DNA of 38,645 nt from Bacillota bacterium (GTDB lineage: Bacteria; Bacillota; Sulfobacillia; Sulfobacillales; JAIMBI01), in contig JAKATP010000013.1 of assembly GCA_021818685.1 (NCBI GenBank), forward strand, positions 1 to 38,645. Direction: 5' to 3'. A program made the position numbers and the translations under genes. Each line of letters starts with the position of its first letter. Positions within the stretch are counted from its first letter, which is position 1. Shown one piece after another: positions 3,532-36,567 of this stretch. Below the pieces are notes generated by a model. It was not told where the DNA came from. It worked only from the letters and a program-made list of their open reading frames with translations, and did no database searches.

Positions 3532-4662
3532 GTGGACCTCGACCTCAGCCACGAGCAGCGCATGATCCGGGACACGGTGCGGGAATTTGCTCGGGAAGTC
3601 GTGGAACCTGGCGCGTCGAACCGGGACGAAAGTGGGGAGATCCCCCTGGCCATCATGCAGGAGATGGGCCAGATGGGGCTCTTGGGACTGCCGTTTCCGG
3701 AGCAGTGGGGCGGATCCGGCGGCGATACCGTCAGCTACGCGCTGGCGGTGGAGGAGATAAGCCGGGTCGATGCGTCGCTGGGGCTCGGGTTTGCAGCCCA
3801 TGTATCACTCGGATGTTCCCCCTTGTACCTTTTTGGCTCCGACGCGCAGAAGTCCCGCTATCTGACCCGGGCCGCGCGCGGTGAATATCTGGCCGCTTTC
3901 GGGCTCACGGAGCCGGAAGCCGGCTCCGACGCGGGCGGAACCAGTACCCGCGCGCAGGAGACCGCCGATGGGTTTTCGATTACCGGCACCAAGATCTTCA
4001 TCACCAATGCGGGCCACGCCGGCTACATTGTCGTCACGGCGCGGCATGGGGAAGGCATCTCCTCTTTCATTGTGCCCGCAGGGACGCCGGGCCTGTCGGT
4101 GCAGTGCAACTACCGCAAACTGGGCATGCGCTCGTCCGAGACCTGCGAGGTGCGCCTTGACGACGGGCACGTGCCGGCCGACCATATTCTGGGGGAACCG
4201 GGCCACGGATTCCGCCAGTTCCTCGAAATCCTGGACGGTGGGCGCATCAGCATCGGCGCCCTGGGGGTGGGGATTGCGCAGGCCTGTCTTGACGCCACCG
4301 TGGCCTATGCCCACACGCGGCGGCAGTTCGGGCGGACCCTCGATCGGTTTCAGGCCATCCAGTTCAAAGTCGCGGACATGGCGATGGAGGTTGAACTGGC
4401 GCGGAACATGGTGTTGAAGGCGGCCTGGCTGAAAGATCAGCACCGCCCATTTGCCACCGAGGCCGCGATGGCGAAGCTCTTCGCGTCCGAGGCCGCGATG
4501 CGGGCAAGCCTGCAGGCGGTGCAGGTGCACGGCGGCGCCGGCTATATGCGTGACTTTCCGGTGGAGCGGTACATGCGCGATGCGAAGCTGCTCGAGATTG
4601 GGGAAGGCACGTCCGAGATCCAACGTCTGGTCATCAGTCGCGCCGTTTTGGGGGTGCGATAA
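3532..4662 (+). CDS. Acyl-CoA dehydrogenase (isovaleryl/short-chain type)
   Basis: A 376-residue FAD flavoprotein that oxidises acyl-CoA to 2-enoyl-CoA and passes electrons to ETF. It has the full family layout: helical N-domain, beta middle domain with LTEPEAGSDAGG near 125-136 and GTKIFITNA near 150, and the C-domain with RRQFGRTLDRFQAIQ near 264-278. The C-terminal motif IGEGTSEIQR carries Glu358 where short- and medium-chain enzymes place the catalytic base. Start GTG 3532 has GGAGG seven bases upstream. It opens an operon whose later genes (biotin carrier, carboxyltransferase, HMG-CoA lyase, hydratase) point to leucine or isovalerate catabolism, as with Bacillus yngJ. Isovaleryl-CoA as substrate is inferred from context only. 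Confidence 0.92.
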   Translation: MDLDLSHEQRMIRDTVREFAREVVEPGASNRDESGEIPLAIMQEMGQMGLLGLPFPEQWGGSGGDTVSYALAVEEISRVDASLGLGFAAHVSLGCSPLYLFGSDAQKSRYLTRAARGEYLAAFGLTEPEAGSDAGGTSTRAQETADGFSITGTKIFITNAGHAGYIVVTARHGEGISSFIVPAGTPGLSVQCNYRKLGMRSSETCEVRLDDGHVPADHILGEPGHGFRQFLEILDGGRISIGALGVGIAQACLDATVAYAHTRRQFGRTLDRFQAIQFKVADMAMEVELARNMVLKAAWLKDQHRPFATEAAMAKLFASEAAMRASLQAVQVHGGAGYMRDFPVERYMRDAKLLEIGEGTSEIQRLVISRAVLGVR

Positions 4663-4670
4663 CGAGGAGT

Positions 4671-5351
4671 TTGTTGGAGTGGATCGGGGCGGCGGCGCCG
4701 GATCACCCCGCCCGCGCGGCGCTTGCGGCGGCACAGGCGGTGTCCGCCTGCCTCGGCGGGCGGCGGGATCCGGTGCTCGTCAGTGCCGTCGACCCCGTGC
4801 TGTGGCTTGCGTCCTGGACCGCCGGCCGTCCGGTGCTGTGGCACCGGGGGGGCCTGCGTGGCTTGGCAGCGGTGAGAGCGTCCGAGTTCCCGCCCCCTCC
4901 CCCTGCGACCGCGGATCCAGCCGCACCCGCGCTCATATGGGCCAAGGGCCCGACGGCGTGGGTGTATTCCCATGCGGCGGTTTTTGAAGCGATCGCGGAG
5001 ACAGCCGGCCTTTGTGCCTGCGGCACCGGGTTTTCGGGCCCGCCGGCCTTCATCCAGGGGGCCGCGGCCTGGATTCTCGGGCGGCCGTTCGGTGAGGGGC
5101 GTTTCTTCTGGCCACTGCCTGGCGCGACAGGCGTCGTTACCGATGGCGAAAACCGGTTCCGTTGCCTGCCCGAGCTTCTCGGCCCATTTCAGGAGGCCGG
5201 GGAGGATCCGACCGCGACAACCCGTCTGGAGGACCGTGTACGGGTGCGAAGCCGGCGGCTCTTTGACGGCTATTGGACCGGACAGGACGTCGTCCCCGCC
5301 CGTTTTCTGGACGGATGGTATGTGCTTCGATATCCCATAAGTGAGGTGTGA
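4671..5351 (+). CDS. Shrunken AMP-binding (acyl-CoA ligase-like) protein, probably non-catalytic
   Basis: A 226-residue protein with an intact frame. It resembles a heavily shortened adenylate-forming acyl-CoA ligase. PALIWAKGPTAWVYSHAAVF (about 86-105) sits where a ligase has PALI-YTSGTTGxPKG-V-xSH, but the ATP-binding loop TSGTTGxPKG is gone. The end, VRSRRLFDGYWTGQD then FLDGWYVLRYP, matches the VRGPxLFxGYW and FxDGWFRTGD elements, with the catalytic TGD changed to RYP. The C-terminal lid domain is absent; full ligases run to about 500-560 residues. TTG start at 4671 or 4674, with GAGGAG just upstream. In Bacillus yng operons a real ligase (yngI) and a biotin carboxylase (yngH) occupy this position. 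It could be a decaying gene or a repurposed binding protein. Confidence 0.6.
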   Translation: MLEWIGAAAPDHPARAALAAAQAVSACLGGRRDPVLVSAVDPVLWLASWTAGRPVLWHRGGLRGLAAVRASEFPPPPPATADPAAPALIWAKGPTAWVYSHAAVFEAIAETAGLCACGTGFSGPPAFIQGAAAWILGRPFGEGRFFWPLPGATGVVTDGENRFRCLPELLGPFQEAGEDPTATTRLEDRVRVRSRRLFDGYWTGQDVVPARFLDGWYVLRYPISEV

Positions 5352-5355
5352 CAAC

Positions 5356-5577
5356 ATGCAGGCGGTGCAGGCCAGTCTCGCCGGAACCGTGTTCAAGGTC
5401 CTGGTGACCCCCGGTCAGCAGATAGCGGCTGGTCAGGAAGTCGTACGGCTCGAGTCGATGAAGATGGAGATCCCCGTCGAGAGCGAGGTAGCAGGCCGGG
5501 TCATCGAGGTCGTGGTGCAGGAGGGCGCCTTTGTCAACGAGGGCGATCCGCTCGTGATGGTGGAGATGGACGCGTGA
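5356..5577 (+). CDS. Biotin/lipoyl attachment carrier protein (acyl-CoA carboxylase BCCP)
   Basis: A 73-residue single biotinyl domain that carries CO2 on biotin between a biotin carboxylase and a carboxyltransferase. The biotinylation motif ESMKMEIP is clear, with Lys36 as the modified residue; the GTVFKVLVTPGQQIAAGQEV start and the VQEGAFVNEGDPLVMVE end complete the flattened beta-barrel. ATG 5356 is preferred, with GAGGTG upstream; a GTG at 5341 in frame would overlap the previous gene. It lies between the AMP-ligase-like gene and the carboxyltransferase, whose GTG start overlaps its stop. The separate small carrier is the same arrangement as in Bacillus yng operons. Confidence 0.93.
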   Translation: MQAVQASLAGTVFKVLVTPGQQIAAGQEVVRLESMKMEIPVESEVAGRVIEVVVQEGAFVNEGDPLVMVEMDA

Positions 5578-7091
5578 CCGACGAAGAGCTGAAGGCGGCG
5601 CGCGCGCGAGCGCTGGCAGGGGGCCCTGCCCGGTATCACGAGCGCCTGGCGGGAGCCGGCAAGCTTGACGTCCGCACCCGGCTCGATCTGCTCTTGGACC
5701 CTGGATACACGGAGGACGGGCTTTTTGCCAGTGCCCTCGCGGACGACCTCGCCGCCGACGGCGTGGTCACGGTCTCGGGCGCCATTGGCGGTCGGCCGGT
5801 GGTGGTGATGGCGAATGACCCCACCGTGAAGGCGGGTTCGTGGGGCGCCCGCACGGTGGAAAAGATCCTGCGCATTCAAGAGCAGGCGATGCAGCTTGAG
5901 TGCCCGATCTTCTATCTGGTCGACTCGGCCGGAGCCCGCATCACGGATCAGGTACAGATGTTTCCCGGCCGCCGCGGGGCCGGCCGCATCTTCTATAATG
6001 AGGTGCGGCTATCGGGCCGCGTGCCTCAGATCTGCATCCTCTTCGGACCGTCGGCGGCCGGCGGTGCGTACATTCCCGCTTTCTGCGATGTCGTGATCAT
6101 GGTGGAGAAGAATGCGTCCATGTACCTGGGCTCCCCGCGCATGGCCGAGATGGTCATCGGCGAGAAGGTGAGTCTGGAGGAGATGGGCGGAGCCCGCATG
6201 CACTGCACCGTGAGCGGAACCGGGGATCTGCTGGCGCCGGACGAGGAGACGGCCATCCACTGGGCCCAGGACTATTTTGCCTATATGCCCGACAACTGGC
6301 GAACCACGCCTGCCCGGGCCGCGGCGGTCGAGCCCGCCCCCGTCGACCTCGAAACGCTGATTCCGGAGAACCAAAACCTGCCGTTTGACGTGAAGCAGCT
6401 CATCGAAGGACTGGTGGACCGTGATTCCTTCTTCGAGCTGAAACCGCTGTGGGCCGGCGAGATGGTGGTCGGATTCGCCCGGCTCGAGGGGGAGGCCGTC
6501 GGCGTCGTCGCGAATCAGTCCAAAGTCAAGGGCGGGGTGCTGTTTGTCGACTCGTCCGACAAGGCGGCTCGCTTTGTCACCTTGTGTGACGCGTTTAATA
6601 TCCCGCTCCTATTTCTGGCAGACGTGCCAGGCTTCATGATCGGCACCAAGGTGGAGCGGGCCGGGATTATCCGCCATGGGGCCAAGCTCGTGGCGGCGGT
6701 GTCCGAGGCTACGGTGCCCAAGATCTGCGTCGTGGTGCGCAAGGCGTATGGAGCGGGGCTTTATGCCATGGCGGGACCCGCGTTCGGGTCGGACGCGGTC
6801 CTGGCGCTGCCAGGGGCGCAGATCGCGGTCATGGGCCCGGAGGCAGCCGTAAACGCGGTGCATTATAACCATATTCAAGAGCTCGGACCCGCGGAGCGGC
6901 CCGCATTTGTGGCCGCTCGGCAGGCGGAATACCGGGCGGATATCGACATCCTCCGGCTCGCCGCGGAACTGGTGGTCGACGAGCTGGTGGAGGTGGGCCG
7001 CCTGCGCCGGGAGCTGTCACGCCGTTACGCCCATTATCGGACCCGTGAGCGCCGCTTCAGCGAGCGGCGACATCCCGTGTATCCCGTTTAG
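5574..7091 (+). CDS. Acyl-CoA carboxylase carboxyltransferase subunit (methylcrotonyl/propionyl type)
   Basis: A 505-residue biotin-dependent carboxyltransferase that moves CO2 from carboxybiotin to an acyl-CoA. It has two crotonase-fold halves. The N-half holds the conserved GPSAAGGAYIPAFCD stretch near 160-174, and the C-half holds KVKGGVLFVDSSDKAARF and ADVPGFMIGTKVERAG in the middle region, followed by RKAYGAGLYAMAG. Length is normal for AccD/PccB/MccB subunits. With the neighbouring dehydrogenase, HMG-CoA lyase and hydratase, methylcrotonyl-CoA is the likely substrate (compare yngE), but propionyl-CoA cannot be excluded. GTG 5574 overlaps the carrier stop (GTGA), which suggests translational coupling. 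No biotin carboxylase gene accompanies it. Confidence 0.9.
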   Translation: MTDEELKAARARALAGGPARYHERLAGAGKLDVRTRLDLLLDPGYTEDGLFASALADDLAADGVVTVSGAIGGRPVVVMANDPTVKAGSWGARTVEKILRIQEQAMQLECPIFYLVDSAGARITDQVQMFPGRRGAGRIFYNEVRLSGRVPQICILFGPSAAGGAYIPAFCDVVIMVEKNASMYLGSPRMAEMVIGEKVSLEEMGGARMHCTVSGTGDLLAPDEETAIHWAQDYFAYMPDNWRTTPARAAAVEPAPVDLETLIPENQNLPFDVKQLIEGLVDRDSFFELKPLWAGEMVVGFARLEGEAVGVVANQSKVKGGVLFVDSSDKAARFVTLCDAFNIPLLFLADVPGFMIGTKVERAGIIRHGAKLVAAVSEATVPKICVVVRKAYGAGLYAMAGPAFGSDAVLALPGAQIAVMGPEAAVNAVHYNHIQELGPAERPAFVAARQAEYRADIDILRLAAELVVDELVEVGRLRRELSRRYAHYRTRERRFSERRHPVYPV

Positions 7092-7153
7092 GCTGTCGGA
7101 TCCGGCAGATCCGCGGCAGAATCTCCACTCATATGAAGAGAGGACGTGTCGCC

Positions 7154-8092
7154 GTGTCCCTGGAACTGGTCTCTGAGGTCTCCATCCGCGACGTGTCGCC
7201 CCGGGATGGACTGCAGGCGGAACCTAAAATCCTTGACACTCAGGCCAAGCGCGACCTTATCGACGGACTCGCGCTGGCTGGCGTGCCCCGGGTCGAATGC
7301 ACGTCCTTTGTCAATCCGAAGCTGCTGCCGCAGATGGGAGATGCGGAGGCGGTAATGGCGGGCCTGACGCGCCGCTCCCGCACCCATTACTCGGTGCTGG
7401 TTCCGAACGTGATGGGGGCCGAGCGGGCCGTGCTCCAGGATCCCGACGAGATGACGGTGTTCGTCTCGGCCAGCGAGACCCACAACCGGAAGAACGTCCA
7501 TTGCTCGATCGCGGAGTCGCTGGCCCAATTCCAAAAGGTGATGGGGGTGGGCCGCCAGCGTAGCATCCCGGTCGGTGCGTACGTGGTGACCGCCTTTGGC
7601 TGTCCGTACGAAGGAGTGGTGCCGGAGTCGGCGCTGCTGGATTTGACTTACCGCCTGTTTGACCTCGGGATCCGCATGGTGACGCTCGGCGACACGGTGG
7701 GGGTGGCTCATCCTCTCCAAGTGCAGCAGCGCATCCGCACGATTCGCCAGAGTCTTCCCGGCGTGAGCCTGGGTGTGCACTTTCACGACAATCGCGGGAC
7801 GGCGCTCGCCAACATGCTGGCCGCGCTCGATGCCGGCGTCACGTATTTTGACACGGCACTCGGCGGCATCGGCGGCTCGCCCTTCTCGCCAGGAGCGGGC
7901 GGCAACCTCGCGACCGAGGATGCGGTGTACCTGCTGGAGGAGATGGGGGTCGACACCGGCATCGATCTGGACGCGCTGCTCACCCTCGGAGACCGATTGG
8001 CCGACGAGCTCGAACATCCTCTGCCCTCACGAGTCCGGCAGGCGCGGGGGCGGATGGTGCCGGTCGGGCGTGATGGGCAGATCCATGAGTGA
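7154..8092 (+). CDS. HMG-CoA lyase family protein
   Basis: A 312-residue TIM-barrel lyase that would split HMG-CoA into acetoacetate and acetyl-CoA. The VSPRDGLQAEP motif near 11-21 holds the catalytic Arg-Asp, HFHDNRG holds the metal-binding His pair, and GGNLATEDAVYLLEEMG is typical of the family. The flexible-loop motif reads GGIGGSPFSPGA where most family members have GGLGGCPYAxGA, so Ser replaces the catalytic Cys. This may mean lower activity or a different hydroxyacyl-CoA substrate. GTG 7154 is chosen because AAGAGAGGA ends nine bases upstream; an ATG at 7133 lacks a good site. It lies in the leucine-type operon (compare yngG), and its end overlaps the next start by eight bases. Confidence 0.85.
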   Translation: MSLELVSEVSIRDVSPRDGLQAEPKILDTQAKRDLIDGLALAGVPRVECTSFVNPKLLPQMGDAEAVMAGLTRRSRTHYSVLVPNVMGAERAVLQDPDEMTVFVSASETHNRKNVHCSIAESLAQFQKVMGVGRQRSIPVGAYVVTAFGCPYEGVVPESALLDLTYRLFDLGIRMVTLGDTVGVAHPLQVQQRIRTIRQSLPGVSLGVHFHDNRGTALANMLAALDAGVTYFDTALGGIGGSPFSPGAGGNLATEDAVYLLEEMGVDTGIDLDALLTLGDRLADELEHPLPSRVRQARGRMVPVGRDGQIHE

Positions 8093-8891
8093 GAATCGGG
8101 ATGACGCGGTGCTGGTGGAGCGGGGGCGTGTGACGACCGTGCGTCTGAACCGGCCTCAGGCCCGCAACGCCCTTAATGCGGAGGTGATGGATCGCCTGCG
8201 GCAGGTGTTCCAGGAACTGGCGCGCGATCCGGATGTGGCCGTCATCCGGCTCACGGCCACCGGAGAGCAGGCGTTTTCGGCCGGCGCCGACTTGCGGGAA
8301 GTGGAGGCCCTCACGGGCGTGGAGGCGGTGCGCGCCTACTTCGGAGGCATGGCGCTCCTATTGGAGGCCATGTTCTCGTGTCCGAAGCCGATCGTGGCGG
8401 CCGCCTTCGGCTACACCCTGGCGGGGGGAATGGGACTGGCGGCGGGGGCCGACCTTTTGGTAGCGGCTTCTGACACGGTGTTTGGGCTGCCGGAAATCGG
8501 GGTGGGTCTGTTCCCGATGGTGGTGATGGCGGCTATCAGCCGGCATATCGGGCGGCGGCGGACCCTCCAGCTGGCGTTTACAGGGGAACGGATCGATGCC
8601 GCCACCGCGGAGCGGTGGGGGTTTGTGAATCACCTGTGGCCCCAGGCAGAGCTGGAGGCAGAGAGCCTGGCGCTGTGCGAGCGGCTTTCCGAGAAGAGTG
8701 CGGCCATCCTGGCCCTCGGCAAGGAAGCGTACGGTCAGATGGCGGATATGGCCTATCCGGCCCAGCTGCACTATCTGAAGGACATGGTGAGCCTGGTCGC
8801 CCTCTCGGAGGACTCGAAAGAAGGCGTGCGGGCGTTTTGGGAGAGGCGGCCGCCGGTATGGCCGGGTGCGAAGCCGCCGACCTCCGGATAA
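8085..8891 (+). CDS. Enoyl-CoA hydratase/isomerase family protein (putative methylglutaconyl-CoA hydratase)
   Basis: A 268-residue crotonase-fold enzyme. The first oxyanion-hole element is [12 protein letters not shown] near 60-71, and the second is [19 protein letters not shown] near 106-124. [13 protein letters not shown] follows, with a Glu in the region that supplies the catalytic acid/base. Length is normal. As the last gene of the operon, next to carboxyltransferase and HMG-CoA lyase, hydration of 3-methylglutaconyl-CoA is the likely step (compare yngF); general enoyl-CoA hydratase is the alternative. ATG 8085 overlaps the lyase gene by eight bases, so translation is probably coupled. 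The reading frame is open far upstream, but that part is a shadow of the lyase gene. Confidence 0.87.
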
Positions 8892-8915
8892 GATCTCCGA
8901 TCCCAAATCCCGGGG

Positions 8916-8946
8916 TTGCATGACAGGGGGGAGTCTGGTCGATAAT
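8916..8946 (+). promoter_or_regulatory. Predicted promoter of the imuB-dnaE2 operon
   Basis: TTGCAT (8916-8921) and GATAAT (8941-8946) resemble sigma-A -35 and -10 boxes with a long 19-base spacer. They lie just before a LexA box, in the only AT-rich patch of the area. The match is moderate and the spacing is not ideal. Confidence 0.45.
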
Positions 8947-8951
8947 ATATA

Positions 8952-8963
8952 GAACATATGTTC
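8952..8963 (+). promoter_or_regulatory. LexA (SOS) box, Bacillus type
   Basis: GAACATATGTTC is a perfect 12-base inverted repeat. With its flanks it agrees with the Gram-positive LexA consensus CGAACRNRYGTTYC at 13 of 14 positions; only the first C is A. It lies 15 bases before the ATG of the ImuB-like gene and just downstream of the predicted -10, so bound LexA would block transcription. Together with the DNA-polymerase content of the operon, this makes SOS control very likely. Confidence 0.88.
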
Positions 8964-8977
8964 CCATGAGGTGAGCC

Positions 8978-10045
8978 ATGTTTCTGAGTTTTGAGCTCCG
9001 GGCGCTCCAGGGCCGTACGGCTCCGGCCCCATTCGCCGTGATTCGTGACCAGGCCGTGTTTGATGCCAGTCCCGATCTCTGGGAGGCCGGCATCGACTGG
9101 GGGCTTCCAGTGCGGGAGATTGCCTGGCGCTTTCCCGACGCCAGTCTTATCACCCGCGAACCGGCGGAAGACACGGCACTCATACGGGAGCTGGAAGATT
9201 GCCTGGCGCTTTGGGGCAGCCGCTTTTCCATCAGCGATCCGCGATACGGCTGGGTGGAGATCCCGGCCCCGGTACCCGAGGACTGGCTGTACCTGCGGCA
9301 GGCGCTGGTGCCTCACCGGGCGCAGTATATCGGCGGAGGTCTTGCGTTCCATCCCCTGCTGGCCCGGTGGGTGGCCCGCGCCGGTGCGGCCCTCAAACTT
9401 CCACGCTGGGATGCCGGCGGGTGCGGTCTGTTCGTCTGCTCTCCGGCGGAGACGACCCGCGCCTGGGCAAGTCTTCCGTTGAAGGTGGCCCCGGCCCCGG
9501 AATCCGAGCGGCGCCGATGGCGGCAGCTCGGATTAGAGCGTGTGGGCGAGGTGGAGGGACTGGCGGCACGGCTCATGCGGCTTCCGATCAGCGGCCGCAT
9601 CCTGCGTCCCGTGCGGGTGGAGGAGGCGTTTTCGGAGGCGCTTGACACGGGTGTGATGGCCGCTTTGGAGGAAATGGCCTCGCGTCTGGGACGGGCACTC
9701 AGGGAACGGGGCCTCGATGCCTTCAGCCTGAAGCTCATCTGGAGTCCGGAGAGCGGAGAACGTCTGGAGCGGGAGCGGCGGTGGCCAGACGGGTCCTGCG
9801 ACGATCGGATTCTGACCGCCCGCCTCTTTACCCTCCTCCAGCCCTGGCCGTCCTCTCCGCCCACGGCGCTCGCACTGGAGGCACGGGAGACCGGACGTTC
9901 CCGGCCGCAGCAGCTTAGCTGGTGGGAGTCCCGGGTCGAGCGGGAGGCGCCGTCCGGCGAGCGGCATCCGGTTGCCGATCGCGAAGTGCGTTTCAGCTAC
10001 TGGGATCCATGGCGTTATCCCCGACGGCGGGAGGTTCTGCGATGA
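8978..10045 (+). CDS. ImuB-like Y-family polymerase homologue lacking catalytic residues
   Basis: A 355-residue protein related to DinB/ImuB. ImuB is a non-catalytic Y-family relative that links the error-prone polymerase DnaE2 to the sliding clamp. Residues 20-75 follow the ImuB N-terminal pattern (VIRDQAVFDAS, then GLPVREIAWRFPD), about 108-135 the alanine-rich finger region, and about 160-200 the ASLPLK...LGLERVGEVEGLAARL helix-hairpin region. The palm acidic residues of active Y-polymerases (DxD near the start, DE near 100) are not present. QQLSWW at 311-316 looks like a beta-clamp-binding motif. It is shorter than usual ImuB (about 500 residues). GAGGTG precedes ATG 8978; the stop overlaps the next ATG (ATGA). 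Confidence 0.78.
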   Translation: MFLSFELRALQGRTAPAPFAVIRDQAVFDASPDLWEAGIDWGLPVREIAWRFPDASLITREPAEDTALIRELEDCLALWGSRFSISDPRYGWVEIPAPVPEDWLYLRQALVPHRAQYIGGGLAFHPLLARWVARAGAALKLPRWDAGGCGLFVCSPAETTRAWASLPLKVAPAPESERRRWRQLGLERVGEVEGLAARLMRLPISGRILRPVRVEEAFSEALDTGVMAALEEMASRLGRALRERGLDAFSLKLIWSPESGERLERERRWPDGSCDDRILTARLFTLLQPWPSSPPTALALEARETGRSRPQQLSWWESRVEREAPSGERHPVADREVRFSYWDPWRYPRRREVLR

Positions 10046-10320
10046 CTCGCGAGGGACAATCCAGCCCTTCGTCCGATCGCCGCCAGGCCCGGATGGCATG
10101 CAGACTGGCATGGAAGGACGACGAGCCCGTCCGGTTTTTCTGGCGGGGCCGATGGCACCAGGTCCTTCGGGTCCAGGAAGCCTGGCTCGATGCGGGACGC
10201 TGGTGGGCAGGCGAGAAGGCACTCTGGTTTTATCGTGTGGCCACGGCTAACGGGGTGTATGAGCTGGCGGCGGAGGGTGCCGGGGTCGCCGCGGCGCAGG
10301 TTTATCGGGTGTACGACTGA
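10042..10320 (+). CDS. DUF6504-like small protein of the ImuB-DnaE2 operon
   Basis: A 92-residue cytoplasmic protein of unknown activity. The core FFWRGRWHQVLRVQEAW, then GRWWAGEKALWFYRV, then GVYEL and a final VYD, resembles the DUF6504 type found beside ImuB/DnaE2 genes in Gram-positive bacteria (recalled, not searched). It is rich in Trp and Arg and predicted to be mostly beta strand; there is no signal peptide or membrane segment. It overlaps the ImuB-like gene (ATGA) and the polymerase gene (TGATG), so all three are almost surely translated together. A helper role in mutasome assembly is inferred from position only. Confidence 0.65.
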   Translation: MTREGQSSPSSDRRQARMACRLAWKDDEPVRFFWRGRWHQVLRVQEAWLDAGRWWAGEKALWFYRVATANGVYELAAEGAGVAAAQVYRVYD

Positions 10321-13300
10321 TGGGCGGGTCCGGCACGCTCTTTCACGTGCATTCCGCCTTTTCGTTTCTGGATGGCACGAGCCTGCCCGAAAGCCTGGTA
10401 GCGGCAGCCGCGGCCCGAGACATTGGCACCATGGCCTTGACCGACACCCACCGCCTCTCGGGACTGGTGCTGTTCTTGAAGGCTACGGCGGCCGCGGGCA
10501 TCAAGCCGGTGGCCGGTGCGACCGTGAGGCTGGCCGGTGACGGCGGGGTGCTGGTGCTGCTGGTGCCGGGGCCGGATCGCTACGGCCAGCTCACCCGAAT
10601 CCTCACACATGCACACGTGGAGCATGCCCGCGGTGCGCCGGCAGTGGAGCGGGCGGCGCTCGAAGAGTGGGGACCGGGTCTGGTGGCCCTGTCCGGAGGC
10701 CGCCGGGGGGTGCTGGACCGGCTCATCTACGCGGGGCGTCACCAGGCGGCGCTCAGGGAAGCCAGCTGGTTGAAGGGGGTCTTTGGTCCCCGTTTCTTCC
10801 TGGAGGTAGGAGCGGGCTGGCTTCCCGGCGATCGCGCCATCCGCCGGACGCTGCAGGAGCTCTCAGAACACCTCGGCATCCCGCTGGTGGCGACTCCGGA
10901 GGTTCATTATGCCTATCCCGATGACTTCGCCCTCTATGATCTGCTGGTGGCCGTCCGCCACGGTCTACGGGTGGAAGAGCCGCATCCGGACCGGCCGCTC
11001 AATGCCGAAGGCTACGTCAAGTCGGAAGTGGAGACAGCGCGCGCTCTCGGTGATCTGGCGGCTCCCGCCTTGCGGGGGGCGGCCATGCTGGCGGAACAGC
11101 TCGAGCCTCCCGATCTGCTCGGACGGACCCGTGCCCCCCGGTTCGGGGATGACCCGGATGCGGCGCAGAACCGGCTTGCGGCCCTGGCCTGGGCGGGAGC
11201 CCGGCGCCGCTACGGCAGGCACTGGCGGCGGGCGGAGGTCCGGATCCGGCACGAGCTTCGCATTATCACTGATCTGGGATTTCAGGACTATTTTCTGGCG
11301 GTGGAGGATGTGGCCCGTTTTGCCCGGACGGCCGGCATTCGTTTTGCCGGCCGCGGATCGGCGGCCGATTCGGTGGTGGCATACTGTCTTGGCATCACGC
11401 ACGTCGATGCTCTGGCCCGCGATCTGCTGTTTGAGCGCTTTTTGAGTCGCGAGCGGGCGGAGACGCCTGACATCGATCTCGACTTTGATGCCCGGCGGCG
11501 TGACGAGGTGGCCGACTATGTCCGGCAGCGCTACGGCGCCGAGCATGTGGCGGCGGTCGCCACCTACCAGACATTTCGCGCCCGGCTTGCCCTGCGTCAA
11601 ATTGGAAAGGTGCTCGGGTTTCCGGCCAGGGACCTGGACGAAGTGGCCCGCTCGCTCCCGCCCCGCCCCTTGCTGCAGACAGAGGCGGCGTGGGAGGAGG
11701 TGCCGGAGCTGCGAGAGCTCCAGGTGTCGCCGAAAGCTCGTGAGCTCTTGCGCTGGGCGGCGAGGGCTGAAGGCATTCCGCGGCACATCGGGACCCACCT
11801 CGGAGGCCTCGTCATCAGTAGCGAGCCGCTTTTGACGGTCACGCCGTTTGAAACATCCGCCAAAGGGATCCAGCTGGCCCAGTTTGACAAGCGGGATGTG
11901 GAGGATCTGGGCCTCCTGAAGCTCGATCTGCTCTCGCTGCGGACTTTCACCGCTCTCACCGACACCGTGGCCTCTATCCGGCAGGTCGAGCCGGGTTTTG
12001 ACGACGACCGCCTGCCGACGGCTGATCCGGCAGTATACCGTCGGCTGCAGGCGGCGGATACCATCGGCACCTTTCAGTTGGAGAGTCCGGCCCAGCGAGC
12101 TCTCGCCCGGCGGCTAGCGCCGGATCGCTACGAGGACATCGTGGCCAGCCTGGCCCTCATCCGCCCCGGACCCATCAAGGGCAATATGGTGGATCCCTTC
12201 GTCGCCCGGCGGCGCGGGGAGGAGCCAGTCCGTTATCCTCACCCGGAGCTTGAGCCTATCTTGCGAAAGACGTTTGGCGTGGTGCTGTTTCAAGAACAGG
12301 TGATTGCCATCGCGAGTCAACTGGCCGGCTTCAGTCCCGGCGAGGCGGACCAGCTGCGGCGGGTGATGACGCACGCCCGCTCCACGACGGAAATGGAGCG
12401 ACTCGGCACCTCCTTTCGGGAGAAGGCCATCGCGCGCGGCATCGCACCGGAGGTGGCCGGGGAGGTGTTCCAGCAGATGGTGGGGTACGCGAGCTATGGA
12501 TTCAACGAGGCTCACGCGGCCGCCTTCGCGGAAACCGCCTACCGGACGGTCTACCTCCTGGACCGGTATCCGGGACCGTACCTGACGGGACTCTTAAATG
12601 CCGAGCCGATGGGGTTCTACCCGCTGGACGTGCTCATCACCGAAGCCCGCCGTCGGGAAATTGCCATCCTGCCCCTCGACATCGAGCAAAGCGAGGGGCC
12701 GTTCTTTTATGACCATGCCGCCCGCGGGATCCGGATTGGATTATTGGCGGTGAAGGGGCTCGAGGAGAAGGTGGCCACGGCCATTGCGGAGGCTCGAAAG
12801 AATCCGTGGCAAAATCCGCTCCAGATCCTGGAACGGGCGAGGGTGCGCCTCGATCTGGGTGCCCAGCTCATTCGGGTGGGCGCCTTCGATCGTCTGCGGC
12901 CGGATCGCGAGCATCTTCTGAGTGAATGGCTCTTCGCCAATCCCCTGGGGCTTGAGCGGCCGGGCGGGGACCGTCCCTGGAGCCTCGGTGAGCGGCTCCA
13001 CTGGGAATATCAGATCCTGGGGTTCGGGCAGAGCGAGCAGGTCATGGCGCTGTTCCGTCCCGGGCTGAATGCGCGGGGATTCCTTACCGCCGCCGCCGCT
13101 AACCTCAAACCGGACGCGGAGCCCATCCGCGTGGCCGGCGTCCCCATCCGCCCGCACCGGCCTCCCACCCGGAGCGGGCGGCTCATCGTGTTCTTCTCAC
13201 TTTTGGATGAAACCGGTCTCATCGACGCCTCCTTGGCCGAGGAGCGCTATCGCCGCCTCGGCCATTTCCTGTTCTCCGCTCAGCATCGCGGCCCTTTAAG

Positions 13301-13367
13301 CGTTGCCGGACGCATGCGGCAGGGTACGCTCATGGTGACGGCAATGGGGCCCGTCCCCGTGCGCTGA
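10320..13367 (+). CDS. dnaE2: Error-prone DNA polymerase III alpha subunit (DnaE2/ImuC)
   Basis: A 1015-residue C-family polymerase used for translesion synthesis. The N-terminal PHP domain begins LFHVHSAFSFLDGTS (HVHS near residue 9), as in DnaE2. GRGSAADSVVAYCLG follows in the palm, then PDIDLDFD with catalytic Asp386 and Asp388, and KLDLLSLRTFT with Asp536. The finger and clamp-binding regions follow (RPGPIKGNMVDPF, FGVVLFQEQV, FNEAHAAAFA), with an OB-fold-like end. The length suits DnaE2/ImuC (about 1000-1080) rather than replicative DnaE (about 1160). Assignment is supported by the ImuB-like gene and LexA box upstream. ATG 10320 shares its A with the previous stop. No imuA-like gene is present in the window. 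Confidence 0.9.
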   Translation: MGGSGTLFHVHSAFSFLDGTSLPESLVAAAAARDIGTMALTDTHRLSGLVLFLKATAAAGIKPVAGATVRLAGDGGVLVLLVPGPDRYGQLTRILTHAHVEHARGAPAVERAALEEWGPGLVALSGGRRGVLDRLIYAGRHQAALREASWLKGVFGPRFFLEVGAGWLPGDRAIRRTLQELSEHLGIPLVATPEVHYAYPDDFALYDLLVAVRHGLRVEEPHPDRPLNAEGYVKSEVETARALGDLAAPALRGAAMLAEQLEPPDLLGRTRAPRFGDDPDAAQNRLAALAWAGARRRYGRHWRRAEVRIRHELRIITDLGFQDYFLAVEDVARFARTAGIRFAGRGSAADSVVAYCLGITHVDALARDLLFERFLSRERAETPDIDLDFDARRRDEVADYVRQRYGAEHVAAVATYQTFRARLALRQIGKVLGFPARDLDEVARSLPPRPLLQTEAAWEEVPELRELQVSPKARELLRWAARAEGIPRHIGTHLGGLVISSEPLLTVTPFETSAKGIQLAQFDKRDVEDLGLLKLDLLSLRTFTALTDTVASIRQVEPGFDDDRLPTADPAVYRRLQAADTIGTFQLESPAQRALARRLAPDRYEDIVASLALIRPGPIKGNMVDPFVARRRGEEPVRYPHPELEPILRKTFGVVLFQEQVIAIASQLAGFSPGEADQLRRVMTHARSTTEMERLGTSFREKAIARGIAPEVAGEVFQQMVGYASYGFNEAHAAAFAETAYRTVYLLDRYPGPYLTGLLNAEPMGFYPLDVLITEARRREIAILPLDIEQSEGPFFYDHAARGIRIGLLAVKGLEEKVATAIAEARKNPWQNPLQILERARVRLDLGAQLIRVGAFDRLRPDREHLLSEWLFANPLGLERPGGDRPWSLGERLHWEYQILGFGQSEQVMALFRPGLNARGFLTAAAANLKPDAEPIRVAGVPIRPHRPPTRSGRLIVFFSLLDETGLIDASLAEERYRRLGHFLFSAQHRGPLSVAGRMRQGTLMVTAMGPVPVR

Positions 13368-34586: not shown

Positions 34587-36567
34587 CGGCGGCTTTTCGT
34601 TGGGATCGGCAGAGGTGGCCTTTCGCCCGAGTCCGAAACTCATTCGGCAGGCCAACCTGACTCGCTTTATGGCGGCCTGGGACGTTCAGAGCCTGGATGC
34701 GCTCCGGGCGCGGGCGGCCGCCGATCCGGAGTGGTTCTGGGACGCGGTGGTGAAGGACCTCGGCTGGCATTTTGACACCCCCTACGAGCGGGTGCTGGAC
34801 CTGACGGAGGGCGTGGCGTTTGCGCGCTGGTTCGTCGGGGGGACCACGAACCTGGCCAGCACGCTTCTGGACCGCCATGCGGAGGGCTCGGAGAAGAACC
34901 GTCTCGCCCTCATCTGGGAGGGCGAAGACGGGACCATCGCCAAGTTCAGCTACCGGGAACTCTTTGTCGAGGCCAATCGCATGGCGCACGCGCTGGAGGC
35001 GCTGGGCGTGCAGATGGGGGATGTCGTCGGTCTTTACCTGCCGATGATCCCGCAGGCCGTGATTGCAAGCCTGGCGGTGGCGAAGCTCGGCGCGATCTAT
35101 GTGCCGATGTTCTCCGGGTACGGTGCCGAGGCGGTGCGCACGCGGCTCGTGGACGCAGGCGTAAAGGTGCTGATCACGGCCGACGGGTTCTACCGACGAG
35201 GGCGTCCGGTCGCGATGAAGCAGGTGGCGGATGAGGCCGTCCGGGGGGCGCCCTCCGTGCAATCGGTGGTGGTCGTGCGCCGGCCGGGATCCGACGGTCC
35301 GGTCCCGGTTCCGGTGACCATGGAGCCCGGCCGTGACGTGGAGTGGCAGGTGATCCGCGACCGGGCCCCGGACTCACCGCTCACGCGGTCGGTGCCGAGC
35401 GAGCATCCGTTTCTCATCATGTACACGTCCGGCACGACCGGGCGTCCCAAGGGTGCCGTGCACACCCACACCGGGTTTCCGCTAAAAGCGGCGCAGGATC
35501 TCGAACACGCCTTTGACCTGAAGGCGGAGGATGTTCTCTTCTGGTTTACCGACATGGGCTGGATGATGGGGCCCTGGGCCGTGCTGGGCGGGATGGCAGC
35601 CGGGTCCACCGTGCTCATCTATGACGGGAGCCCCGACTACCCGGCGCCGGACCGTCTATGGCAGATGGTGGACCGGCATGGCGTGAGCGTGTTGGGCATC
35701 GCCCCCACCGCCATCCGGGGACTCATGGCGCACGGGTCGGACCCGGTGAAGCGGCATGATTTATCGAGCCTTCGCATCCTCGGATCGAGCGGCGAGCCCT
35801 GGAACCCCGAACCCTGGGCGTGGTTTTTCAAGGAGGTGGGACAGGGGCGCTGCCCGATTGTCAATTACTCGGGAGGGACGGAGATTTCGGGGGGGATCCT
35901 GGCGGCCTTTGCCATTGAGCCGCAAAAGCCGTGTGCGTTCTCCGGACCGATTCCGGGCATGGCGGCGGATGTGTTTGACGACGACGGGAAGCCGGCACCC
36001 CCAGGGGCGGTGGGCGAGCTCGTGCTAAAGGCCCCGTGGCCGGGTATGACCCAGGGGTTCTGGCACGACCGCGCCCGCTATCTGGACGCGTACTGGATGC
36101 GATGGCCGGATGTGTGGGTGCATGGGGACTTTGTCGTACGGGACGACGACGGATTTTGGTATATTCTCGGCCGGAGCGACGACACGATCAAGGTGGCCGG
36201 CAAGCGTCTGGGACCGGCCGAGGCAGAATCGGCCGCCGGGGCGCATCCGCGCGTGCGCGAATCGGCGGCGGTGGGCGTCCCCCACCCCGTGAAGGGGGAG
36301 GCCCTCGTGGTTCTGGTGGTGGTCGACGGCGAAGCGGATCCAGGTTTGGCGGATGCCATCGCCGACGCCATCGGCCAAAACCTGGGGAAGGCACTGCGCC
36401 CGGAGCGGGTGGTCTTGGTGCCGGCGCTTCCGAAGACCCGCAATGGCAAGATCGTGCGGCGGGCGGCGCGAGCCGCGTATCTCGGCGTGGAGGCGGGCGA
36501 TCTGTCGGCAGTCGAGAACCCCGAGGCGCTGGACGCGATCCGTGCCCGGGGTGTGAGCGGCGCGTGA
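34579..36567 (+). CDS. Acetyl-CoA synthetase-like acyl-CoA ligase
   Basis: A 662-residue adenylate-forming enzyme making acyl-CoA from acid, ATP and CoA. It has the N-terminal ACS domain (about 30-90, WDVQSLDALRARA then WFWDAVVKDLGWHFD), the P-loop-like MYTSGTTGRPKGAVHTHTGF near 278-297, the FTDMGWMMGPW and NYSGGTEISGG elements, WVHGDFVVRDDDGFWYILGR with the ribose-binding Asp, and PKTRNGKIVRR near the end with the catalytic, acetylatable Lys. Length fits Acs (about 650). The motif FTDMGWMMGPW rather than the Acs form TADVGWVTGH suggests an acid other than acetate. ATG 34579 overlaps mocA, so it belongs to the same operon. Confidence 0.9.
   Translation: MADGGFSLGSAEVAFRPSPKLIRQANLTRFMAAWDVQSLDALRARAAADPEWFWDAVVKDLGWHFDTPYERVLDLTEGVAFARWFVGGTTNLASTLLDRHAEGSEKNRLALIWEGEDGTIAKFSYRELFVEANRMAHALEALGVQMGDVVGLYLPMIPQAVIASLAVAKLGAIYVPMFSGYGAEAVRTRLVDAGVKVLITADGFYRRGRPVAMKQVADEAVRGAPSVQSVVVVRRPGSDGPVPVPVTMEPGRDVEWQVIRDRAPDSPLTRSVPSEHPFLIMYTSGTTGRPKGAVHTHTGFPLKAAQDLEHAFDLKAEDVLFWFTDMGWMMGPWAVLGGMAAGSTVLIYDGSPDYPAPDRLWQMVDRHGVSVLGIAPTAIRGLMAHGSDPVKRHDLSSLRILGSSGEPWNPEPWAWFFKEVGQGRCPIVNYSGGTEISGGILAAFAIEPQKPCAFSGPIPGMAADVFDDDGKPAPPGAVGELVLKAPWPGMTQGFWHDRARYLDAYWMRWPDVWVHGDFVVRDDDGFWYILGRSDDTIKVAGKRLGPAEAESAAGAHPRVRESAAVGVPHPVKGEALVVLVVVDGEADPGLADAIADAIGQNLGKALRPERVVLVPALPKTRNGKIVRRAARAAYLGVEAGDLSAVENPEALDAIRARGVSGA

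Follow-up and report, generated by a model that had tools for sequence, protein, structure and literature searches.

A maintained, probably ANL-derived and non-catalytic protein in the leucine-type operon of Sulfobacillus and relatives

The locus and its reading frame

We analysed a stretch of 38,645 nucleotides from a Bacillota bacterium of the order Sulfobacillales (contig JAKATP010000013.1, positions 1 to 38,645), referred to below as the window. On the forward strand, an uninterrupted frame that opens with TTG and spans 226 codons (4671-5351) is flanked by the genes for an acyl-CoA dehydrogenase and a biotin carrier protein in a leucine-type operon. The protein family that it encodes has no prior name, and we use X as a working name here. 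The features of the locus are the following:

3532-4662, + strand, acyl-CoA dehydrogenase, first gene of the operon
4659-4662, + strand, ATAA, in which the dehydrogenase stop codon TAA (4660-4662) is overlapped by an in-frame ATA of X
4665-4669, + strand, AGGAG, Shine-Dalgarno-like, 1 and 4 bases upstream of two TTG codons
4671-5351, + strand, X, putative ANL-like pseudoenzyme, 226 amino acids when read from the TTG at 4671 (start codon uncertain)
4968-4979, + strand, codons of SHAA (X residues 100-103), motif-aligned with the ANL 'xSHRxL' that follows the P-loop
5238-5333, + strand, patch of X residues 190-221 (VRVRSRRLFDGYWTGQDVVPARFLDGWYVLRY), which matches the end of the MenE N-terminal domain
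5356-5577, + strand, biotin carrier protein
5574-7091, + strand, carboxyltransferase
7133-8092, + strand, hydroxymethylglutaryl-CoA lyase (HMG-CoA lyase)
8079-8891, + strand, enoyl-CoA hydratase family protein

Three further regions of the window were annotated. Positions 3-1025 hold an open reading frame for a TnpB-type RNA-guided endonuclease, N-terminally incomplete at the window edge, which scores 133 bits (NCBIfam cut-off 100). Downstream of the operon, 8978-13367 encode an unnamed 355-residue protein and an error-prone DnaE-type polymerase; many genomes of the order have this pair near the operon, and one genome that has no operon (G007) has it near X. A full ANL enzyme is encoded at 34870-36063 (PF00501, E 1.9e-81).

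The X protein of the window matched no Pfam family, even at E = 10, and on its own no NCBIfam model; at the same Pfam threshold, none of the 15 homologues scanned matched a family either. Open and syntenic homologues are nevertheless present in 6/6 genomes of the window's family, with identities from 71% to about 40%, compared with 94% to 76% for the adjoining dehydrogenase. In one genome (G004) X is divided between two contigs. In three loci of the other large family (L100, L104, L105) the X frame is free of stop codons, of which there are 4-11 in each of the five others. A gene on the opposite strand (4542-5396, -) was considered and rejected: the matching antisense frame is closed by stop codons in G001, L032, L100, L104 and L105. 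No disrupted copy of X was seen among the homologues read. The intact 226-residue frame described in the initial annotation is thus confirmed by open homologues in family-mates and by profile matches across the order, and that X is a real, conserved gene is well supported.

X evolves fast and is under purifying selection that is weaker than in its operon neighbours but clear. Over ten pairs its dN/dS ranged from 0.12 to 0.44, with bootstrap upper bounds of 0.17-0.81, all below 1, some of the wider pairs being near saturation at silent sites. Within operons the values were 0.2-0.3 for X versus 0.01-0.09 for the other genes. Since the frame is open across relatives and dN/dS lies well below 1, X is a real protein and no decaying relic. 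The same ratios, below 1 in every pair, bear out the initial view that the gene is not simply decaying, and leave neutral drift unsupported.

The start codon is less certain than the frame; candidates in the window are the ATA at 4659, the TTG codons at 4671 and 4674, and a GTG at 4740. The ATAA at 4659-4662 sits where other genera have GTGA, ATGA, TTGA or TAATG overlaps. In the congener G001 the first ATG, GTG or TTG occurs only at codon 17 of the conserved X frame (position 5183 in L028), and the residues ahead of it (L028 5123-5183) are conserved despite the lack of any of these codons there. A non-canonical AUA start in the window's genus, or an assembly error, would be a possible explanation for G001.

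Distribution and gene context of X

By profile search, 36/42 genomes of the window's order carry X, whereas the genomes sampled outside the order have none; a search of a plasmid collection gave no match. The records that carry X include Sulfobacillus benefaciens, S. acidophilus and several Bacillota metagenome bins. A weak match in G029 was excluded from the count, as it consists of the ANL patch alone within a 507-residue frame. In the rest of the class and in the phylum sample, likewise, only the short patch was matched, in frames of 539-703 residues, and both phylum matches have the ANL P-loop. The homologue in G007 is more divergent, its N-terminal part being unmatched by the X profile, and the tree of X has long branches and weak deep forks. 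One genome (G015) has two leucine-type operons on separate contigs (L087, L207), each with an X of its own. X is a new family specific to this order, well supported as a conserved gene, and the order has probably kept it since its common ancestor.

The genes for the acyl-CoA dehydrogenase and the biotin carrier flank X in 30 genomes; most of these loci were read directly, and G022 and G033 were counted from the coordinates of the carboxyltransferase and X matches. In most of the genomes read, the dehydrogenase stop codon overlaps the X start or lies directly next to it, as GTGA, ATGA, TTGA or TAATG. Because of this arrangement the two proteins are probably translated in step. No genome with the operon and without X was found in the order. 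Nor was a biotin carboxylase gene found within the leucine operon anywhere in the order, and the window's genome encodes only one such enzyme, on another contig (C245). In Bacillus operons the slot is occupied by a YngI-type ligase and a biotin carboxylase. In more distant Bacillota loci (L107, L112, L121) the dehydrogenase gene directly adjoins the carrier gene and X is absent; these operons, too, are without a biotin carboxylase gene. At L105, about 2.4 kb of extra sequence (7240-9699) separates the carboxyltransferase and HMG-CoA lyase genes; it was not seen in the other operons.

Six genomes (G007, G014, G018, G026, G030, G032) have X and lack a close carboxyltransferase. Five of them have divergent panB-galE-galT genes on one side of X and ddl on the other; in G007 X is divergent from panB as well. 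In members of family f3 with the operon, panB and the dehydrogenase gene of the operon are divergently arranged. This is most simply explained by loss of the surrounding leucine genes and retention of X. In the panB tree the five f3 genomes without the operon group as one clade (98/96), and G007 lies outside it on a long branch, which leaves the number of losses unsure: there was at least one, and probably there were two. For G007 the operon may instead have been acquired around X at a later time, a less simple reading than loss. X remains constrained in these surroundings, with dN/dS of 0.28 (interval 0.19-0.39) for the pair G018-G026 and 0.44 (0.26-0.81) for G030-G032. Its retention without the leucine genes implies that a partner or ligand exists outside leucine breakdown, and the role of X is therefore probably not tied to that pathway alone.

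Probable kinship with ANL enzymes and missing catalytic motifs

All sequence matches of X fall within 32-58 residues near its C-terminus, a patch equivalent to the last part of the ANL N-terminal domain, immediately ahead of motif A7. The NCBIfam MenE model matched the homologues at L101 (1.7e-6) and L104 (3.1e-5), a score of 27.2 bits being far below the curated cut-off of 494. A profile of 23 X sequences, searched against all PDB sequences, gave 12 matches up to E = 10, of which 11 were ANL enzymes, with MenE as the best (4e-4). When the X profile was compared by hhalign with the order's own MenE, the score was 48.8 (E 5.8e-6), whereas 30 column-shuffled X profiles scored no higher than 19.4 and the reversed profile scored 16.6. 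Against YngI the score was 22.7 (E 0.04), and against other ANL groups 22.6. Against a mixed, mostly YngI-like ANL set, the same patch was returned with a probability of only 5%; the signal became clear only against the MenE-only profile. A global hhalign alignment of X was meaningless and was discarded. MenE is thus, with moderate support, the nearest ANL relative of X.

Structure models point to the same fold. The AlphaFold model of the homologue at L105, built on only 10 sequences, is of medium confidence (pLDDT 72, pTM 0.73). VIA-align superimposed it on MenE (6nj0, 56-347) with Z 11.0 over 173 residues at 4.0 Å, and nearly all of the 50 rows returned were ANL proteins. Foldseek also placed MenE at the top (probability 0.98, E 1.4e-3), with no E-value below 1e-3. 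The model of the X protein of the window has low confidence (pLDDT 54), yet mostly ANL chains were returned for it. In the structure prediction called for at the outset, both models rank ANL enzymes first, and that of L105 matches MenE best. The overall fold of X would be that of the ANL N-terminal domain, an assignment that outside the patch rests on the medium-confidence model of the homologue.

The catalytic motifs, in contrast, are missing. Neither the A3 phosphate-binding loop, (T/S)SG(S/T)TGxPKG, nor the A5 motif, (Y/F/W)GxTE, occurs in any of the 23 X homologues, and the homologues examined lack the A7 TGD, the A8 hinge and the A10 lysine domain. X ends about 0-25 residues past the GW that precedes TGD in ANL enzymes. 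In the L105 model, a short turn that joins predicted strands 67-70 and 76-79 takes the place of the P-loop. S100 and A103 of X, within SHAA, are nearly invariant; the correspondence of SHAA to the ANL 'xSHRxL' was drawn by eye. The initial description of an ANL-like protein that lacks the ATP loop, the TGD motif and the C-terminal lid is borne out by profiles, models and the 23 homologues. Because the P-loop, A5, A7 and the C-terminal domain are missing, X is not expected to adenylate and, judged from this loss of motifs, would be catalytically dead.

Proposed role and related systems

On balance we lean towards X being a maintained ANL-derived, most likely MenE-like, pseudoenzyme with a non-catalytic binding role. 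Its ancestor would have been an ANL adenylating enzyme, whose N-terminal domain was reduced to about 210-240 residues. With the phosphate-binding loop, A5, A7 and the whole C-terminal domain lost, neither adenylation nor thioesterification would be expected; purifying selection has kept the protein in the order, probably from the common ancestor onwards. Overlapping or abutting start and stop codons probably couple its synthesis to that of the dehydrogenase and the carboxylase in most genomes, and, as a small accessory or scaffold protein, it would bind an acyl-CoA enzyme or a CoA ester. This accessory role rests on gene order and on the loss of catalytic motifs. The overlapping codons suggest a role near the dehydrogenase and the carboxylase; the retention of X where both are gone suggests that such a role is not the whole story. 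A broader and less likely version would make X an assembly or control subunit of general use to biotin-dependent carboxylases, or to other acyl-CoA enzymes that share one biotin carboxylase; it would have been recruited first in or near the leucine operon and later kept as a gene of its own.

Two narrower assignments of a partner are both unlikely, the one to MenE ranking ahead of the other. X might regulate an active ANL enzyme as the inactive partner of MenE or another ligase, its place in the operon being mainly historical. MenE is its nearest relative by profile, a bona fide MenE scores above the cut-off in 38/42 genomes, the two genes are 14-63 kb apart in the ten genomes that have them on one contig, and X outlasts the leucine operon. 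However, this proximity may reflect only shared ancestry of gene order, it is the acyl-CoA dehydrogenase and not MenE with which X shares start and stop codons, and four genomes in which the search did not find X (G016, G027, G029, G036) have MenE all the same. Alternatively, X could be a dedicated accessory subunit of methylcrotonyl-CoA carboxylase which, for example, docks the genome's only biotin carboxylase. Such a function would fit the position of X between the dehydrogenase and the carrier in operon-bearing genomes, none of which was found without X, and an operon devoid of biotin carboxylase in a genome with only one. It fits poorly with the six operon-less genomes in which X is kept, at dN/dS 0.28-0.44 in two pairs of them, and with L107, L112 and L121, where the same operon has neither a biotin carboxylase gene nor X.

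Very improbably, in our judgement, X is no ANL protein at all, and the GYW..GW patch is a chance or convergent likeness around an unrelated fold. The shortness of the matched patch and the outcome with the mixed ANL set would agree with this, but NCBIfam, the PDB profile search and the comparison with the MenE profile all rank ANL enzymes first, as do two separate structure models. We give still less credence to the idea, raised in the initial annotation, of a relic of yngI, that is, a decaying remnant of a ligase once present in the operon as in Bacillus. The YngI-type ligase does occupy the corresponding place there, X resembles the ANL core, and it evolves faster than its neighbours. The idea is not borne out by the profiles, which favour MenE (48.8, E 6e-6) over YngI (22.7, E 0.04), and is contradicted by the age of X, its spread through the order and its survival of operon loss. 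Moreover, the homologues read are all open, dN/dS is below 1 in every pair, and the truncated length is comparable throughout the order.

The pseudoenzyme reading that we prefer gives a first assignment to proteins of Sulfobacillus and its relatives that match no Pfam family; a literature search on ANL pseudoenzymes and on leucine breakdown in Sulfobacillus returned nothing on point. X would be a bacterial pseudoenzyme derived from an adenylating enzyme, and it comes with a natural experiment in which the operon was apparently lost around it and X stayed. Probably it has a previously undescribed non-enzymatic job, and the family, through its profile, model and gene context, lets one ask of what use an ATP-incompetent ligase core can be.

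Among known systems, MenE (o-succinylbenzoate-CoA ligase; NF006539, TIGR01923; PDB 6nj0, 5c5h) is the best match of X in both profile and fold. The two have the patch VRGxxVxxGYWxx...FxxGWL in common, but X is about half as long and is without the P-loop, A5, A7 and the C-terminal domain. The YngI-type AMP ligase of the Bacillus leucine operon resembles X in belonging to the ANL superfamily and in its comparable place after the acyl-CoA dehydrogenase; it differs in being full length (about 540 residues), and X matches it no better than other ANL groups. The third system is the ANL-like chain of the Euglena respiratory supercomplex (PDB 8iuf, chain E1), which matched the X model with Z 9.1. This is a eukaryotic mitochondrial complex, and the fold match is a hint that proteins with an ANL-like fold may be built into large assemblies.
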